Below, in pieces: positions 1-7,301 of a DNA stretch of 64,000 bases (positions are counted from its first letter, which is position 1; every line of letters starts with the position of its first letter). Source of the DNA: Candidatus Rokuibacteriota bacterium (lineage in GTDB: Bacteria > Methylomirabilota > Methylomirabilia > Rokubacteriales > CSP1-6); NCBI GenBank assembly GCA_003221515.1, contig QHSI01000118.1:1-64000 (forward strand). Reading direction: 5' to 3'. The position numbers and the translations under genes are program-made. A model generated the notes under the pieces. The model was not told where the DNA came from. It ran no database searches and saw only the letters and a program-made list of their open reading frames with translations.

Positions 1-27
1 CACACCGCTGACAGCCACGGCAACTGA
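1..27 (+). CDS. possible C-terminal tail of a further array peptide (partial)
   Basis: The first eight codons run in frame into TGA at 25-27 and would end a protein in HTADSHGN. The short polar tail ending in GN resembles the end of the fourth array peptide (AGN), and the next gene's Shine-Dalgarno follows 15 nt later, as between the other array members. Only eight residues are visible, so this is a guess that the peptide array continues upstream of the window. Confidence 0.25.
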   Translation, partial: HTADSHGN

Positions 28-51
28 TCACGTCACATCAACGGAGGACGC

Positions 52-216
52 ATGAAGCTCCACATCGAAGAGCTCGAGCAGCGGATCGCCCCGAGCGTGC
101 AGGGGACCGGCGGCTACGAGGGCCAGCCGGGTCACCAGTGCAACGCTGGGCAGAATCCCTCCGGCAGCGCGAACCCCGAGGGGACCGCAAACCCCGAACG
201 CAGCGCCAATCCATAA
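52..216 (+). CDS. array peptide 1, IEELEQRIAP leader with Gly/Asn/Pro-rich tail
   Basis: This is a 54-residue peptide with GGAGG at 43-47, 4 nt before the ATG. Residues 1-14 (MKLHIEELEQRIAP) are the conserved block shared by the four adjacent small genes. Residues 15-54 are low complexity (Gly, Asn, Pro, Ser, Glu), with one Cys at residue 30 and repeated NP-type motifs near the end. It has no signal peptide or membrane segment. The constant N-terminus and variable tail suggest a leader/core layout recognised by a shared export or processing protein, most likely the PqqD-M50-HlyD fusion encoded downstream. The function is unknown; the LExR-type block only resembles N-terminal sorting motifs such as LEPR-XLL. 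Confidence 0.75.
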   Translation: MKLHIEELEQRIAPSVQGTGGYEGQPGHQCNAGQNPSGSANPEGTANPERSANP

Positions 217-255
217 CACTGTGCTAGCGAAACCCTAGACGGAGAGGAAGCCCAG

Positions 256-408
256 ATGAAAGCGTTCAAGATCGAAGAGCTCGAGCAGCGGATCGCGCCG
301 TCGAGCGCCGACTTCCCGCCGGGACAGTTCCCGTCGGGCAACCCGGCGCACGCCCCGGGCCTGAGTAACCCGAACGAGGTTCCCGCCACCAACCCGAGCA
401 ACGATTAA
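256..408 (+). CDS. array peptide 2, IEELEQRIAP leader with Pro/Asn-rich tail
   Basis: This is a 50-residue peptide starting at ATG 256, preceded by a purine-rich GGAGAGGAAG at 241-250. Residues 1-15 (MKAFKIEELEQRIAP) align with the leader block of its neighbours at both protein and DNA level. The tail (residues 16-50) is rich in Pro, Asn, Ser and Gly, has no Cys, and ends in NPSND. The gene lies 39 nt after peptide 1 and 27 nt before peptide 3, with a ribosome-binding site of its own. The near-identical leader and divergent tail point to gene duplication followed by diversification of the tail. Confidence 0.75.
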   Translation: MKAFKIEELEQRIAPSSADFPPGQFPSGNPAHAPGLSNPNEVPATNPSND

Positions 409-435
409 TTAGCCAGTAAAGGAGGGTGAAGAGAA

Positions 436-597
436 ATGAAAGAGCTCAAGATCGAGGAGCTCGAGCAGCGGATCGCGCCTTCTGAGGTGGGAAAGGGGCT
501 GGGGATCGGCAACCCCGGCAACAACAACCCCCCCTTGAACAACACGAACAACCCCGGCAACGAGGGCACCGGGGGCAAGGTGTCCACTGGTCCCTAA
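436..597 (+). CDS. array peptide 3, IEELEQRIAP leader with Asn/Gly/Pro-rich tail
   Basis: This is a 53-residue peptide with a strong SD (GGAGGG at 421-426). Residues 1-15 (MKELKIEELEQRIAP) carry the shared block. Residues 16-53 contain runs of Asn and NPG/NNP units and end in STGP. No Cys, signal peptide or hydrophobic segment is visible. The leader DNA (codons 6-15) is almost identical to that of peptides 2 and 4, while the tails are not alignable except in composition. Expected partners are the other array peptides and the PqqD-M50-HlyD protein at 917-3361. Confidence 0.75.
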   Translation: MKELKIEELEQRIAPSEVGKGLGIGNPGNNNPPLNNTNNPGNEGTGGKVSTGP

Positions 598-654
598 CGG
601 CGGCCGTCCAGCCTTGGCGTGACACGCCAGGGAAAGAAGAAAAAGGAGGAACAC

Positions 655-804
655 GTGAGAGAGCTAAAGGTCGAAGAGCTCGAGCAGCGGATTGCGCCGG
701 ACACCGTCGGGGCGCTGCACAACAACCCGGACAACCCCAACAACAACAACCACCACAACGCTGTTCCCAACGGTGCGATTCCGGAAGGGCCGGCAGGCAA
801 CTAG
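655..804 (+). CDS. array peptide 4, VEELEQRIAP leader with Asn/His/Pro-rich tail
   Basis: This is a 49-residue peptide. The start is placed at GTG 655 because GGAGG at 645-649 lies 5 nt upstream and the resulting N-terminus (REL-KVEELEQRIAP) aligns with the other three peptides. The longer frame from 619 would add 12 Lys/Glu-rich residues and has no ribosome-binding site. The tail has an Asn run followed by HH and ends in PAGN. It is the last peptide of the array, followed by a 14-bp perfect hairpin and then the exporter-like gene. Confidence 0.75.
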   Translation: MRELKVEELEQRIAPDTVGALHNNPDNPNNNNHHNAVPNGAIPEGPAGN

Positions 805-845
805 AGCCCGCAGCCCAATCGGCACCATGAGTCCGGGGTAGTCGA

Positions 846-877
846 AGGGCCGCTGCCGGCACTCCGGCAGCGGCCCT
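846..877 (+). terminator. perfect 14-bp hairpin between peptide array and M50/HlyD gene
   Basis: AGGGCCGCTGCCGG (846-859) pairs perfectly with 864-877 across a CACT loop. No T-run follows, so it may be a partial terminator, attenuator or RNA-stability element rather than a full Rho-independent terminator. Its position, after four short genes and before one large membrane-protein gene, would let the peptides be made in excess over the exporter, as is common between precursor-peptide and transporter genes. Confidence 0.65.
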
Positions 878-916
878 CACTGACCGCGCCCGGCAAGCGG
901 GGGTGAGCTCGTACTG

Positions 917-3361
917 ATGGGAGTCGCAGAGCCCAAGCTCCGGAGCGACCTCGTGATCAGCCGGCAGGATGACGCGGTCGTCCTGAAGGATCCGGTGACC
1001 GGGCGGTTCTTCCGCTTCGGCGACGCCGAGCATTTCATCACGAGCCAGCTCGACGGCGCCACGCCGCTCGACGTCGTCCGCCGGCGAGCCGGCGAGGCGT
1101 TCGGGTCCGTGCCGGAGCCGGGAATGCTCGAAGGGTTCGTCGCCTCGCTCCGGCGCATCGGCCTACTCGAGGCCGACGCAGCAGCGCTCGACCGTCCGAC
1201 CGCCCGGTACCGGCGGACCCGTGGGAGCCCTCTCTATCTGAGGCTCAGCGCCTTCGACCCCGATAGCCTCCTGGACCGGATGATCGGCAAGGTCGGCTTC
1301 TTTTTCACGCCGGCCTTCCTCGTTCTCTCCGCGGCCGTGATCGCGCTCGGGCTCGGCATCGCCCTCGCCGAGTGGAGCGACATTACCCGGGATCTCCAGC
1401 GCCTCTGGCGTTTCGAGATGATCCTCGCGGCGTGGCTGATCGTTTTTGCGGTCACCACGGCGCACGAGTTCGCGCACAGCCTGACCTGCAAGCGATTCGG
1501 GGGCCACGTCCACGAGATGGGGTTCCTCCTCATCTATTTCCAGCTCGCCTTCTACTGCAACGTGAGCGACGCCTGGCTCTTTCCCGAGAAGAGAAAGCGC
1601 CTCGGGGTGACCATGGCGGGCCCCTACTTCGAGATGTTCCTCTGGGCCCTGGCCGTCATCGCCTGGCGGATCACCGAGCCGGGCACGTGGCCCAGCGCGG
1701 TTGCGCTGGTGGTGGTCGCCACCTCCGCCTTCAAGCTCTTCATCAACCTCAACCCCCTGATCAAGCTCGACGGCTACTACCTGCTGAGCGACGCGCTGGG
1801 GATTCACAACCTCCGCGCGCGCGCGTTCGGCTATCTCAAGCGCCGGCTGTCGGCTCTGGTGGCGTCGCCGGGCCGGGCGACGGAGGAGCCCACGCCTCGG
1901 GAGCGACGGGTCTACCTGGCGTACGGCCTCCTGGCCGGCGGCTACTCCGCGTGGCTCCTCAGCTGGGTGGCGCTGGCGATGGGTGGCTGGCTCACCGAGC
2001 GCTACCAGGGCGCCGGGGCGATCGTCTACACGAGCTTGCTCGGGCTCGCGTTTCAGAACCCCTTGCGGCGCTGGAGCGCGAGAGCCGGGCTCAGCGCCTG
2101 GCGCGAGCGCGTGAACGCGCGCTGGAAGGCGCTCCACGGTCCGGTGCGAGCGCTTTTGCTGCTCGGCCTCTCCCTGGCCGTGCTCTTCCTCGCGCCGTGG
2201 CAGCTCACGGTCTCGGGTGACTTCTCGGTCGCTCCGCGCCACAACTCCGACGTGCGCGCGGAGGTCGACGGGATCATCGCCGAGGTCTACATCGACGAGG
2301 GCCAGCGGGTCGCGGCGGGCGAGCTGATCGTCCGGCTCGCCGATCGGGATTATCGGGCCGAGCTCAGGGCTGTCGGCGCACAGATCGACGAGACGTTGGC
2401 CCGGCTCAACATGCTGCGGGCGGGACCGCGAGCCGAGGAGCTTCGCCTGGCGCGGCAGAACGTCGAGACCGCCGAGACCCGGCGCGAGCACGCCCGCCGC
2501 CGGTACGAGGAGGCGGAGCAGATGCAGGCCGCCCGGCTGGCCAAAGCGACGGCCGACGTCGCGACGGGCGAAGAGCGGCTGCGGTACGCTCGCAAGGATC
2601 TGGAGCGCTTCCGGGCGCTCTTCGCGACCGAGCTGATCTCCCGGCGAACGCTCGAGGAGGCCCAGGAGCTGGCGGGGATCCGCGAGAAGGAGCTGGTGGC
2701 CGCTCGAGCAGAGCTGGGGACCGTGTCGGCCGGCGATCTGTCGTCCACCGGCGATCTGGCCGGGTTCCGCAAGGAGATGGCCGTGGCCCAGCAGGAAGCG
2801 GAAGAAGCCCGGGGCCGGCTCCGGCTGCTCGCGGCGGGAAGCCGGCCCGAGGAGATCGAGGGGGCCGAGGCGGTGCTGGCGCGACTGGTGGGCCAGCGGA
2901 GCCACCTCGAGGACCAGCTCCGGCTCGTCATGGTGCGGAGCGCGGTTGCGGGCGTCGTCACGACACCGAAGCCGCGCGAGAAGATCGGACAGTACCTGAA
3001 GAAGGGCGACCTCGTCGTCGAGGTGCACGAGTTCGAGACCGTGAGGGCGGAGATCGCCATCCCGGAGAGAGAGATCGGCGACGTGAAGGTCGGACAGGCG
3101 GTCGTCGTCAAGGCCCGGGCCTATCCTGAGCGCGCCTTTCAGGGCCGGGTGACCGCGATCGCGCCGGCCGCCATCAAGGAGGAGGAGGGCTGGCGGGGCA
3201 AGGTGTTCAGAGTGACGACCGCCCTCGAAAACCCCGACCTTCTCCTGCGGCCCGAGATGACGGGAACCGCCAAGATCTACTGCGGCGAGCGTCGGCTACT
3301 CAACGTCCTCACCAGAAGGCTCGCCCGCTACCTGCGGGTCGAGTTCTGGTCCTGGTGGTAA
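917..3361 (+). CDS. PqqD-like / M50 site-2 metalloprotease / HlyD adaptor fusion
   Basis: This 814-aa membrane protein has three parts. Residues ~8-86 look like a PqqD-type peptide-recognition domain. Residues ~120-410 are a multi-pass M50 (site-2 protease) core with zinc motif HEFAH (183-187) and the second metal motif NPLIKLDG (279-286). Residues ~430-814 are a periplasmic HlyD-type adaptor with a lipoyl-like segment (VDGIIAEVYIDEGQ), a long Glu/Arg/Ala-rich coiled coil (~480-660), the returning half-motif and a beta-barrel. PqqD-like domains bind leader peptides in RiPP systems, M50 proteases cleave in or near the membrane, and HlyD adaptors link inner-membrane exporters to the outer envelope. 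Directly downstream of the peptide array, it is the best candidate to bind, cleave and export those peptides. No ATPase or outer-membrane channel is visible. The start is ATG 917, with a weak purine stretch at ~899-906. Confidence 0.85.
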   Translation: MGVAEPKLRSDLVISRQDDAVVLKDPVTGRFFRFGDAEHFITSQLDGATPLDVVRRRAGEAFGSVPEPGMLEGFVASLRRIGLLEADAAALDRPTARYRRTRGSPLYLRLSAFDPDSLLDRMIGKVGFFFTPAFLVLSAAVIALGLGIALAEWSDITRDLQRLWRFEMILAAWLIVFAVTTAHEFAHSLTCKRFGGHVHEMGFLLIYFQLAFYCNVSDAWLFPEKRKRLGVTMAGPYFEMFLWALAVIAWRITEPGTWPSAVALVVVATSAFKLFINLNPLIKLDGYYLLSDALGIHNLRARAFGYLKRRLSALVASPGRATEEPTPRERRVYLAYGLLAGGYSAWLLSWVALAMGGWLTERYQGAGAIVYTSLLGLAFQNPLRRWSARAGLSAWRERVNARWKALHGPVRALLLLGLSLAVLFLAPWQLTVSGDFSVAPRHNSDVRAEVDGIIAEVYIDEGQRVAAGELIVRLADRDYRAELRAVGAQIDETLARLNMLRAGPRAEELRLARQNVETAETRREHARRRYEEAEQMQAARLAKATADVATGEERLRYARKDLERFRALFATELISRRTLEEAQELAGIREKELVAARAELGTVSAGDLSSTGDLAGFRKEMAVAQQEAEEARGRLRLLAAGSRPEEIEGAEAVLARLVGQRSHLEDQLRLVMVRSAVAGVVTTPKPREKIGQYLKKGDLVVEVHEFETVRAEIAIPEREIGDVKVGQAVVVKARAYPERAFQGRVTAIAPAAIKEEEGWRGKVFRVTTALENPDLLLRPEMTGTAKIYCGERRLLNVLTRRLARYLRVEFWSWW

Positions 3362-3601
3362 TGCCCGAAGCTCCCCCGGGCGGGACTGGAACTTCCTCGG
3401 CGTGATCTCGCTGCGCACGGAGCCGAGGCGCCCGCCGTTGCGCGCGTGATCGGCCTGCCGACGAAGATCGTGCGCCGGGGCTCGACCATCGGTCTTCACG
3501 GCGGCGTGGATGGCGGGGCGCGTCCGACGACGGGACCGCTGCCGCCGCCGTGGCGCTACGACGACCACTATGGCTTCAGCAGCGTGAGCTGCGCCGAGTA
3601 G
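3362..3601 (+). other. open stretch after the exporter gene, possible gene remnant
   Basis: After the stop of the M50/HlyD gene the same frame stays open for about 79 codons to TAG at 3599-3601, but it has no credible start or ribosome-binding site at its beginning. The last ~60 codons look protein-like (IGLPTKIVRRGSTIGLHGG, then a Pro-rich patch and an aromatic WRYDDHYGF patch). I do not recognise the family. It could be the 3' end of a decayed gene. Nothing else is seen in 3362-3611. Confidence 0.25.
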
Positions 3602-3611
3602 CACTAGGGTG

Positions 3612-4127
3612 TTATCCGGGCGACTCGAAAGCGAGGGTCGCGTAGCGCATGAAGATGCCGCCGCGGGGCTCGGCGAGCGGACCATTCCCGACCAGGCACG
3701 CGATGACATGCCGAGCCCCTGGCACGGCGCTGCCGCTCACCTCTACCCGATGCTGCGCGTTGAGGCCGACGATGACACCGGTGTTCCGGTCGATCTGGCC
3801 GTTGATCCAGATCTCGCCGTAGTTGTCGATGTTCGTCTCGAACCACACGCGCGAGCCCGCCAGTGGGACCGCGGCGATCCGTTCGGGTACGGTGATGGCG
3901 ATCCGGTACCACGCGAAGGTGAAGCCCTCGGATAGGCTCTCCCGGATATTGCCGCACACCTTCCAGCCCGAATCGTCGTAATCCGCCAGCCGTGCGGGGG
4001 TCGCGCGAAGCCGGGCCGTGAGCCCCTCGTTCGGCTCGCCCGGAACCAGCCCCGTCGCGACACGCCACTCGCTCTTGATCTCCCGCCGGTCCTCTGCCTT
4101 GTTCAGGTCCAGCGCTATCCTCGGCAT
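3612..4127 (-). CDS. carbohydrate-binding-like (GH2 N-terminal type) protein
   Basis: This is a 171-aa protein starting at the ATG whose complement is 4125-4127, preceded by an AACGGAGGGGG ribosome-binding site. The longer upstream frame lacks one. It has the pattern of a galactose-binding jelly roll as found at the N-terminus of family-2 glycosidases: YDDSGWK, a FAWYRIAITVPE strand, VWFETNIDNYGEIWINGQ, and C-terminal strands. No catalytic glycosidase domain follows, so it is a stand-alone binding module. There is no signal peptide, so it is probably cytoplasmic. A stand-alone lectin-like role or a helper of an unlinked enzyme is inferred. Confidence 0.6.
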   Translation of the reverse strand: MPRIALDLNKAEDRREIKSEWRVATGLVPGEPNEGLTARLRATPARLADYDDSGWKVCGNIRESLSEGFTFAWYRIAITVPERIAAVPLAGSRVWFETNIDNYGEIWINGQIDRNTGVIVGLNAQHRVEVSGSAVPGARHVIACLVGNGPLAEPRGGIFMRYATLAFESPG

Positions 4128-4362: not shown

Positions 4363-5748
4363 CTAGTCGTCGTCGTCCTCCGACGAGGGCCTTCCGTACA
4401 CCGCGATACACCCTTTCAAACAGTCGGGGTAGGCGTTGTTCGCCGCCAAGGGGACGAATACGTGATTGTTCGCCGCATTGGCGGCGACCGAATGCGCGGT
4501 CCCTGCCGGATGCTGACCGGGGACGGCGGGAACGTTGAGCGTCGGCACGAGCTGGAGCAGCTTTTGTTTCTCCGCGTCGATCACGCCGAGCACGGCAGCC
4601 CCCTGGGACACGTTGACGGGCGCGGAGCTCGCGGTTCCGACTGGAGGCCGTGCCGGCGTAATCGCGTTGGGCGCGAACGGGCTGCCCGACGAGGCCGTGT
4701 AGTAGTTACCGTCACCCTTGTTGAACCAGACTTCGTCACCGGCCCCCACTCCCGGCAGGATCTTGTCGACGGCGCCCGTCTTTGCGTCGATGATCACGTA
4801 CCTCGGCGCGGCGGAATTCGGATTCCTGTCCGCATTCCCCGTCCAGACACCGCCCGCCGTGTCGAACACCACATTGCAGCCGACCAGCAGATCTTGCCTG
4901 GGCCCGCGGGCGAGGCCGGCCGGCGAGCAGAGCTCGACCGGATAGACCGCTTCGATCACGCCGGTCGTCGAGATGCGCACGACTCCTCCGTGCGAGGGCG
5001 TCGAGCCGATCTGCGGGATGGAGAGATAGAACTTGCCAGTGTCCGGATCCCACACCGGTTGTTCGGCGCCGTTGGTCGCATCAACCCCATGGGCCGCGTC
5101 GAAGTCGATGTTCGTCACGACGGTGAGAGCCCCGTTCGCCTTGTTGACCTTGATCACGGTGCCGAACGGCGGGTCTGAAGCGTTGTTGATCACCAGGAGC
5201 AGCCCATCCTTCGGATCGTACGCGAGCTCGTCGGCGCGTGTTTTCTCGCCCGCTCTCGTGAAGACCTCGCTGACGGTCGTCGGCGGGCTGGTCCTGAGGT
5301 CGACCGTGAGCACGCGGCTCGGTGCGTCGGTCACGAACAGGAAGGGGAACGCGCCAACGACGCCGTTGGGGCCGGCGCAATCGTTGGCGCCGGCAGCGGG
5401 CACGCACGGCACGAACCCGGCGAACGGGGCGTGTCCATTGTTGGGCGCGATCTGCGTGATGAACGTGTCGGTCCCGGCGTCCACGACATCGACGGCCTTG
5501 TTGGAACGGTCGGCGAGGTAGTACGTCTGCGTTGCCGGGTCGACGAAGCTGATATCGAACGAGTAGAGAGCGCCGGCCGTGGTGTTCGCGGAACTCACCG
5601 GCACCGGAATCGTCTTGAGAAGGCTGATGGGGCCTCGAGCTCGTCCGTAGTCCCGGTCGCCGGCGCGGCCGGGCGTCGTCCCGAAGAGCAGGAGGGAGAC
5701 GGTGACGAGCAGAAGCGGGATCAGCGCGAGCGTGCACTTTCGCGTCAT
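4363..5748 (-). CDS. secreted beta-propeller (YVTN/NHL-like) protein
   Basis: This is a 461-aa protein. The start is the ATG at complement 5746-5748 (MTRKCTLALIP), with GGAGG 7 nt upstream. The N-terminus is a classical signal peptide (basic residues, then ALIPLLLVTVSLLLF). The mature part is a series of beta-rich blades with recurring VDVVDAGTDTFITQIAPN, LTVDLRTSPP, VIKVNKANGAL and GVVRISTTGVI segments, typical of YVTN/SMP-30-like propellers. It has several Cys, which suit periplasmic disulfides, and ends in an acidic SEDDDD tail. It stands alone. The role is unknown; propellers of this kind bind ligands or partners outside the cell. Confidence 0.65.
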   Translation of the reverse strand: MTRKCTLALIPLLLVTVSLLLFGTTPGRAGDRDYGRARGPISLLKTIPVPVSSANTTAGALYSFDISFVDPATQTYYLADRSNKAVDVVDAGTDTFITQIAPNNGHAPFAGFVPCVPAAGANDCAGPNGVVGAFPFLFVTDAPSRVLTVDLRTSPPTTVSEVFTRAGEKTRADELAYDPKDGLLLVINNASDPPFGTVIKVNKANGALTVVTNIDFDAAHGVDATNGAEQPVWDPDTGKFYLSIPQIGSTPSHGGVVRISTTGVIEAVYPVELCSPAGLARGPRQDLLVGCNVVFDTAGGVWTGNADRNPNSAAPRYVIIDAKTGAVDKILPGVGAGDEVWFNKGDGNYYTASSGSPFAPNAITPARPPVGTASSAPVNVSQGAAVLGVIDAEKQKLLQLVPTLNVPAVPGQHPAGTAHSVAANAANNHVFVPLAANNAYPDCLKGCIAVYGRPSSEDDDD

Positions 5749-5868
5749 TGCGGACCTCCACTTGTGAGCCGCCAAAGGTCAAGCCGCACTCGTGAAGCAT
5801 GCGGACGTTTCGTCACCCGCGCGCCGCGCTCGTGTCGCGGAGCCGGGGCCGCGGAGGAGAAGACCGGG

Positions 5869-6299: not shown

Positions 6300-6572
6300 A
6301 TGCCGAAGTTCGTGATCGAGCGTGAGATCCCGGGCGCGGGAAAGCTGTCCGGGCAGGAGCTCCACGCGATTTCTCAGAAATCGTGCGGAGTCCTCCAGAC
6401 CATGGGGCCGAAGATCCAGTGGCTCCAGAGCTACGTGACCGACGACAAGATCTACTGTGTCTACATCGCGCCGGACGAAGAGACCGTGCGACGGCACGCC
6501 CAGCAGGGAGGGTTCCCTGCCAACAAGGTCTCTCGTATCCGATCGGTGATCGATCCGACTACGGCCGAGTAG
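6300..6572 (+). CDS. DUF4242 family (SCO4226-like nickel-binding) protein
   Basis: This 90-aa soluble protein has an excellent AAGGAGG ribosome-binding site. The sequence (KFVIEREIPGAG, SYVTDDKIYCVYIAPDEE, HAQQGGFPANKVSRI, ending VIDPTTAE) follows DUF4242, whose Streptomyces member SCO4226 is a small nickel-binding ferredoxin-like fold. It is full length for the family. It is transcribed alone, convergent with the gene at 6576. The physiological role is unknown. Confidence 0.85.
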   Translation: MPKFVIEREIPGAGKLSGQELHAISQKSCGVLQTMGPKIQWLQSYVTDDKIYCVYIAPDEETVRRHAQQGGFPANKVSRIRSVIDPTTAE

Positions 6573-6575
6573 TCG

Positions 6576-7301
6576 CTACCGGCGGCGCGAGTTCCTCAGG
6601 AGCCAGTCGACCGCTTCGCTGCCGTCGCCGGCATCCGCGGCGACCGGACCCGCCGAGACCGTCTGACGAGGTGGCGCTGGCGCTTCGGCCACCGGCGTCA
6701 GCGGCGGAGCCGGCGCGATGGGCGGCACGAGCGGTGCCCCCGTCGATGCTGGTGCCCTCGCTGCGGCCGGTGCGGGCGCCGGGGCTGGCGCCGTTGCGAC
6801 GACAGGTGCCTGCGCCGGAGGCGGCGCCGGCCTGAACGTGGCGGATTGCTTAGTCGACGACACGGCCGGCGCTGGTGCGGCTGCGACGGGCGGCAGCGTC
6901 ATCGGCTTCGCCTCGGCCGGTCTGGCTTGCGTCTCGTCCGTGACGACTTGAATCTTGGTCAGGTAGGTGACGTCGTTGCGGACCTCGTAGAACGCCCTGA
7001 CCGGTAAGTCTTTCTTGAGGTCGCGGAGGCCGCGTTGCTCGCCGTGGACCGTGATCGCTGTGTCGTCGGTCACGGTCATCGTGATCGGGCGCAGGCCGAG
7101 CTTCTCGGCCACCTCGACGGTGCGCGCCTTCTGGTCCACCCGACCGACGAAGCCGGTCAGATCGCCCATCACCCGCCCCTCGGCAGGCTGAACGGAAGGC
7201 GCGCGAACCGGCTGGTTCATCCTGGACCACCCCACCATCATGACGACCAGGGCCGCCGCCGCGAGCCCGATACCGCCGGCGATTCTGGAAACTCTCTGCA
7301 T
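6576..7301 (-). CDS. membrane-anchored protein with Ala/Pro-rich linker (DUF5666-like region)
   Basis: This is a 241-aa protein starting at MQRVSRIAGG (complement 7299-7301), with GAGGT about 8 nt upstream. Residues ~7-26 form a single transmembrane or uncleaved signal helix (GGIGLAAAALVVMMVGW). Residues ~45-115 form a small beta domain (LTGFVGRVDQKARTVEV, MTVTDDTAITVHGE, VRAFYEVRNDVTYLTKIQV) resembling OB-like DUF5666 repeats. The rest is a long Ala/Pro/Thr-rich low-complexity segment ending in DWLLRNSRRR. It is probably anchored in the inner membrane and faces the periplasm. Function unknown. Confidence 0.55.
   Translation of the reverse strand: MQRVSRIAGGIGLAAAALVVMMVGWSRMNQPVRAPSVQPAEGRVMGDLTGFVGRVDQKARTVEVAEKLGLRPITMTVTDDTAITVHGEQRGLRDLKKDLPVRAFYEVRNDVTYLTKIQVVTDETQARPAEAKPMTLPPVAAAPAPAVSSTKQSATFRPAPPPAQAPVVATAPAPAPAPAAARAPASTGAPLVPPIAPAPPLTPVAEAPAPPRQTVSAGPVAADAGDGSEAVDWLLRNSRRR

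Follow-up and report, generated by a model that had tools for sequence, protein, structure and literature searches.

Daptide-like leader peptides in tandem array beside an RRE-M50-HlyD fusion gene: a probable RiPP-like system of Rokubacteria and other phyla

Introduction

Daptide precursors (MpaA) carry the leader motif ELExMEAP and are cleaved after the ELExxxxx motif; MpaP, an intramembrane peptidase that depends on an RRE, has been credited with removing the leader (PMC10036551; PMC12338566). Several precursors are encoded at each daptide locus, the cores are hydrophobic and helical, and an invariant C-terminal Thr is converted to Dmp (PMC10036551, NF041824). An M50 protease also acts in another peptide system, that of the epipeptides, where YydH/LiaK (NF058609) is the maturation protease. 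Periplasmic adaptors of the HlyD/EmrA/MacA type partner an ABC or RND pump, and LEPR-XLL sequences, with a short Leu-Glu-x-Arg motif near the N terminus, are found on large proteins.

The window, that is, the whole stretch of 64,000 nucleotides of rokubacterial DNA analyzed here, opens with an array of four small genes directly 5' of one gene for an RRE-M50-HlyD fusion on the same strand, in an operon arrangement (Table 1). The locus is similar to daptide loci in having several precursors, in the leader, which reads ELExRIAP at the same spacing as ELExMEAP and has the same upstream LxL pattern, and in an M50 intramembrane protease that bears an RRE at its N terminus, both parts being homologous. 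It differs in that a HlyD adaptor is fused to the protease, unlike in MpaP, that the hosts belong to Gram-negative-type phyla, and that the cores are hydrophilic, conserved across phyla and, over the whole family, without an invariant C-terminal Thr. None of MpaB, MpaC, MpaD, and MpaM was conserved at the loci by ORF clustering or adjoins the array, and no ABC transporter was found next to the array. The enzyme matches the YydH/LiaK model weakly over the M50 part (E of 2e-6) and far below the family cutoff (27.6 of 225 bits), and to our knowledge no RRE-HlyD fusion exists in that family. Its C-terminal half resembles the HlyD/EmrA/MacA adaptors, but here the adaptor is fused to the RRE and protease. 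A search of the open-access literature, with subscription journals outside its reach, found no paper on the motif or on the RRE-M50-HlyD fusion, which suggests that this widespread peptide system is undescribed.

Table 1. Positions of the peptide genes, the hairpin, and the enzyme domains in the window
Feature	Positions	Strand	Basis
C-terminal end of a fifth leader peptide, core type C (HTADSHGN-stop), cut by contig end	1..27	+	translation
Leader peptide 1: MKLHIEELEQRIAP + core type D (SVQGTGGYEGQPGHQCNAGQNPSGSANPEGTANPERSANP), 54 aa	52..216	+	ORF calls
Leader peptide 2: MKAFKIEELEQRIAP + core type E (SSADFPPGQFPSGNPAHAPGLSNPNEVPATNPSND), 50 aa	256..408	+	ORF calls
Leader peptide 3: MKELKIEELEQRIAP + core type A (SEVGKGLGIGNPGNNNPPLNNTNNPGNEGTGGKVSTGP), 53 aa	436..597	+	ORF calls
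Leader peptide 4 (GTG start): VRELKVEELEQRIAP + core type B (DTVGALHNNPDNPNNNNHHNAVPNGAIPEGPAGN), 49 aa	655..804	+	ORF calls
Perfect 14-bp hairpin in the interval between last peptide gene and enzyme gene	846..877	+	inverted repeat I9
RRE - M50 site-2 protease - HlyD adaptor fusion, 814 aa	917..3361	+	Pfam, NCBIfam
RRE (PqqD-like) domain, residues about 1-90, predicted leader binder	917..1186	+	PDB profile search, AlphaFold2, Foldseek
HEFAH zinc motif (HExxH, residues 183-187) of the M50 domain	1463..1477	+	alignment
LDG motif of the M50 domain, 3' of HEFAH	1766-1774	+	alignment
Membrane anchor and HlyD-type periplasmic adaptor, about residues 426-814	2192..3361	+	PF16576, PF13437, TIGR01843, PDB profiles

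The peptide array

The four short ORFs have in common the leader [IV]EELEQRIAP, which closes their first 14 to 15 residues, and each is preceded by a Shine-Dalgarno-like stretch (GGAGG/AGGAGG type). The repeat search recovered four copies in register (56 nt at 64 to 80% and a 30-nt core at 90 to 97% to the reference), and the leader DNA pattern matched four times in the 64-kb window compared to 0.14 expected, a count reached in 0 of 100 shuffles. These results agree with the first-pass annotation of this DNA, made from the sequence alone, which had described four consecutive small genes with a near-identical leader and their own ribosome-binding sites. Its suggestion that the array continues upstream of the window is also upheld. 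Window position 1 is base 1 of its contig (G000:C107, 69,766 b), and frame 1 of bases 1 to 27 encodes HTADSHGN-stop, the same 8 residues that close a type-C leader peptide from an acidobacterial array (L232; ...SSPQPSSHTADSHGN). The array therefore comprises at least five genes.

The fold of the hairpin ahead of the enzyme gene has a z value of -2.88 (200 shuffles), or -3.2 in the multi-locus comparison, and at 37 of 43 comparable loci the peptide-enzyme intergenic region is more stably folded than its dinucleotide shuffles (z < -2). The hairpin does not follow the poly-T rule of the terminator scan and is probably a partial terminator or a processing hairpin. As a partial terminator, it would allow peptide to be produced in large excess over enzyme.

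No known RNA element was found in window positions 1 to 4000, no TolC-type gene is adjacent to the array locus, and by inspection the genes 3' of the enzyme are unrelated. A 470-aa protein encoded convergent to the array, on the minus strand at 4363 to 5775, probably carries an export signal and has propeller-like repeats; nothing about it indicates membership of the peptide system. A viral origin was considered and rejected, as there was no phage match, the enzyme scan of the viral contigs was empty, and the leader pattern gave only five short, unconvincing matches there. A plasmid origin was rejected as well, with plasmid matches of <60% identity and a coverage of at most about 74%.

The leader motif

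Three leader positions, L(-7), E(-6), and A(-2), do not vary among the 96 distinct leader peptides, and three more, R(-4), I(-3), and P(-1), hardly vary; the full pattern is L-x-L-x-[IV]-E-E-L-E-x-R-I-A-P, and planctomycete leaders read LEDRI[AV]P. All 96 are genetically encoded precursors in which this conserved N-terminal leader is joined to a separate core, of which there are many types, so that the leader/core layout first read from the window alone stands.

The daptide precursors of an annotated mpaP cluster have LELGLQELEVMEAP at the position where the leader peptides have, for example, LKLHIEELEQRIAP-like sequences. The E, L, E, A, and P positions are common to both, with M changed to R and E to I. 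The closest relative of the leader appears to be the daptide RiPP leader and not LEPR-XLL. The likeness to LEPR-XLL proposed earlier was therefore not retained, since profile searches against NCBIfam and Pfam gave no match for the peptides (for the four in the window, no Pfam match and no NCBIfam family at E up to 1) and the daptide motif fits instead. Because cleavage after ELExxxxx and leader removal by MpaP are reported for daptides, cleavage of the present peptides is predicted after RIAP.

Four acidobacterial proteins (L234, L235, L236, and L237) have an identical leader followed by longer tails (~80 residues) that are not low-complexity in appearance; a more distant enzyme gene was seen beside two of the four.

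The RRE-M50-HlyD protein

The protein encoded at 917 to 3361 matched HlyD families in Pfam at 1e-18 to 2e-21 and M50 weakly. With the NCBIfam model daptide_HExxH it gave an E value of 2.1e-59 and 201.6 bits, below the cutoff of 300, and it shares 28% identity with an annotated mpaP product over 392 aligned columns. Judged by sequence, it is a homologue of MpaP but not an equivalog by the NF041824 model.

The N-terminal ~90 residues are predicted to form a RiPP recognition element. The top three matches of this region in the PDB profile search were PqqD and the lasso RREs TbiB1 and TfuB1 (E of 0.008 to 0.08), and its AlphaFold2 model (pLDDT of 79.6) was matched best by RRE-leader complexes in Foldseek (E of 1e-3, probability of 1.0). 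H183, E184, H187, and D285 are invariant in the enzyme alignment, and the adaptor half gave PDB profile matches to MacA and EmrA. In two loci, L050 (G066) and L052 (G039), the enzyme is without the middle of the HlyD part (about residues 463 to 690), with both ends in frame.

Distribution and gene linkage

A scan of 84,980 species genomes yielded 80 RRE-M50-HlyD loci from Acidobacteria, Verrucomicrobia, Gemmatimonadetes, Nitrospirae, Nitrospinae, Eisenbacteria, Planctomycetes, Zixibacteria, and others; these phylum names stem from metagenome bins and single cells, and some contigs may be misassigned, while the divergence of the enzymes is independent of the naming. Leader peptides are encoded at 54 of the 80 loci, singly or in arrays of up to four. 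Nineteen of the 80 have no leader peptide, X gene (see below), or ParB-like partner in view, some of them with ample flank.

Genuine leader peptides occur in 11 of 95 genomes of the rokubacterial phylum. In all 11 they occur with an RRE-M50-HlyD gene, lie at the edge of a contig (G036), or belong to a locus from which that gene appears to have been deleted (G054), and no free-standing leader peptide was found among the 95 genomes. The G054 locus retains the start of the enzyme gene and its downstream neighbor. There, at about 6350 to 7130 (G054:C7, L082), the first enzyme residues run into a gene X fragment and the leader peptide is intact. At a second locus in the source genome of the window (G000:C86), a single leader peptide is encoded together with an enzyme of 84% identity. 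The gene for a metallo-beta-lactamase-fold protein (L016:3785-5332, + strand) is convergent to this second enzyme gene, and the protein recurs near the leader-peptide loci L087 (89%) and L103 (78%). The more distant PqqD-M50-HlyD proteins of Rokubacteria (~31% identity) have no leader peptide upstream; most of their genes are preceded by another HlyD-type gene.

In 297 acidobacterial genomes, the leader pattern gave 43 matches versus 3 for the reversed control. Genuine peptides, counted by reading the translations, are present in 14 of these genomes, and all 14 carry the enzyme, compared to 54 of the 297 overall (hypergeometric P of about 9e-12). At L197, L201, and L233 the leader peptide has no enzyme in view, and the enzyme is encoded elsewhere in their genomes. 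Coupling of the peptides to the PqqD-like/M50/HlyD fusion, which had been set beforehand as a check on the first-pass annotation, was thus found in Rokubacteria, across the enzyme loci (54/80), and in Acidobacteria (14/14). Given the leader/core layout and this coupling, RiPP-like, as had been proposed, is a good description.

Branches and neighboring genes

The loci fall into two branches, one with Asn/Pro/Gly-rich cores, the kind found in the window, and one with Ser/Gly/His/Lys-rich cores. By ORF clustering, the Asn/Pro/Gly-type loci have no conserved partner gene or modifying enzyme, and with no such enzyme conserved there, the peptides of these loci are at most putative RiPPs in the strict sense. 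At Ser/Gly/His/Lys-rich loci, the next gene downstream is often one that we call X (21 loci, without exception on the same strand); at 8 planctomycete loci there is instead an upstream short ORF that bears a comparable GHHRA-type motif. One locus with a Ser/Gly-Lys tail and the ParB-like gene, L165, belongs to the complete genome of a cultured relative, Adhaeretor mobilis. Gene X is absent from the window locus and was never found together with Asn/Pro-rich cores. Its association with tail class (Fisher P of 3e-5) is a pattern only, because both traits track the phylogeny of the enzyme, with too small a number of independent pairs to set the association apart from shared descent.

Protein X, the partner in the Ser/Gly/His-tail branch, has a likeness to the ParB/sulfiredoxin superfamily (ParB, Srx, SerK, and SbnI). 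The best PDB fold matches of its model (pLDDT of 80.8) were nearly all ParB, sulfiredoxin, SerK, or SbnI, with E values of 0.08 or worse over 40 to 90 residues, and NCBIfam gave a weak SerK match. Full-length FemAB-family genes were present at 8 loci.

Conservation of the cores

The four tails in the window are unlike each other, and they had been described at first as hypervariable. This description was abandoned because each tail recurs nearly unchanged in other phyla, with few amino acid changes and strongly diverged synonymous sites. Core type A (peptide 3; consensus NPGNNNPPLNNTNNPGNEGTGGxVSTG) recurs in L090, L099, L121, L141, and L232, and type B (peptide 4) recurs in L099, where it again follows type A, so that the A-B gene order is kept. 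Type E (peptide 2) recurs in L104 (26/28 residues) and L200, and type D (peptide 1) has less strict relatives in L113, L099, and L232. Relative to the window, pS and pN were 0.61 to 0.92 and 0.02 to 0.06 for type A, 0.57 and 0.03 for type E, 0.30 and 0.04 for type B, and 0.76 to 0.89 and 0.10 to 0.16 for type D, all of these being short comparisons of 18 to 23 synonymous sites each. The enzymes of the matching genome pairs have pN values of 0.29 to 0.40. Set against enzyme pN, core pN indicates a roughly five- to fifteenfold tighter constraint on the amino acids of types A, B, and E than on those of the enzyme. These values mark each core as a conserved type under strong purifying selection.

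Horizontal transfer of core cassettes was considered, since the tails match while the enzymes are only 42 to 57% identical; it is not claimed, because the synonymous divergence of tails and enzymes is similar in size. The possibility that core type A is borne by other proteins was also rejected, as its pattern in the 297 acidobacterial genomes matched only the two known arrays.

The window cores are 34 to 40 aa long and acidic, have no hydrophobic stretch, and end in P, D, P, and N, respectively. Core GRAVY values are -0.9 to -1.3, and the cores are largely without Cys. The predicted mature cores, for example, NPGNNNPPLNNTNNPGNEGTGG fragments, would be the part left after leader removal.

Proposed function and alternatives

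We consider it probable that the locus encodes an array of RiPP-like precursors together with a dedicated protein for their processing and export. Each array gene would yield a peptide of leader plus core, and the RRE of the 917-3361 protein would capture the leader on the cytoplasmic side. The M50 intramembrane protease domain would then cut the leader off, with the cut most likely falling right behind ...RIAP by analogy with its homologue MpaP, and the fused HlyD adaptor, together with a TolC-type outer-membrane channel, would pass the hydrophilic core out of the cell. The mature cores would be the functional product, each type with its own conserved activity, and a role as a recognized signal or a turn-rich extracellular component seems likelier than one as a membrane-active toxin.

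The analysis ties leader, recognition domain, intramembrane protease, and export adaptor together in soil phyla that are abundant and for the most part uncultured (Rokubacteria, Acidobacteria, Verrucomicrobia, Gemmatimonadetes, Nitrospirae, Planctomycetes, and others), and it provides a cleavage site that can be tested, together with a list of the mature peptides. In the RRE-M50-HlyD fusion, export would be coupled to removal of the leader in a way that is new. Because rapid diversification is the rule among known leader-peptide products, the cross-phylum conservation would be unusual should the cores act as extracellular signals or as components of a matrix. More tentatively, the peptides may form a separate exported class in many Gram-negative-type phyla, distinguished by the daptide-like leader and the fusion and by a few near-unchanged cores recombined in arrays. 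If so, they would represent a shared extracellular peptide language or building kit and not diversifying antibiotics.

The peptides could instead be substrates of the protease only, as in a regulated-proteolysis sensor, with HlyD serving as a structural part and the cores being degraded or remaining intracellular. The tails are small and look disordered, and the Asn/Pro/Gly-type loci have neither a transporter nor a conserved modifying enzyme, as would suit such a role; at the enzyme loci generally, no ABC or other energized transporter was found to be conserved. However, the cores are far more conserved than the enzyme, which would not be needed for by-products. HlyD is an export adaptor family, and OEP/TolC-type genes were found near 9 loci, five of them checked by Pfam. 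We therefore regard a purely proteolytic role as unlikely.

A role as bacteriocins or toxins, like that of other leader-peptide products with dedicated export, would be in keeping with the leader/RRE/peptidase layout, which is as in daptides, whose products were tested for haemolysis (PMC10036551). This is improbable for the hydrophilic, largely Cys-free cores described here, as no immunity-like gene was found to be conserved at the enzyme loci, and the cores are unchanged over phyla, whereas toxins would be expected to diversify. Least likely is that the motif is a sorting tag akin to the LEPR-XLL/LEDR-type N termini of large planctomycete surface proteins, with the peptides as small clients of a general surface-export route, since, although planctomycete leaders are of the LEDR kind and a Gemmata-type genome with short leader peptides (L199) also encodes a 1614-aa frame with RLSVERLEDRIAP, the peptides match no NCBIfam or Pfam profile, the genuine motif occurs in the sampled genomes almost exclusively in short ORFs next to RRE-M50-HlyD genes, and the daptide leader fits better.

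The L199 frame (G111:C186) has its motif near the start and may link the peptide leader to the N termini of large surface proteins. Aminicenantes-type loci (L119, L120, L228, and L229) encode, convergent to the enzyme gene, sets of three or four peptides of 31 aa that are nearly identical and have the tail TRAAIAMG.
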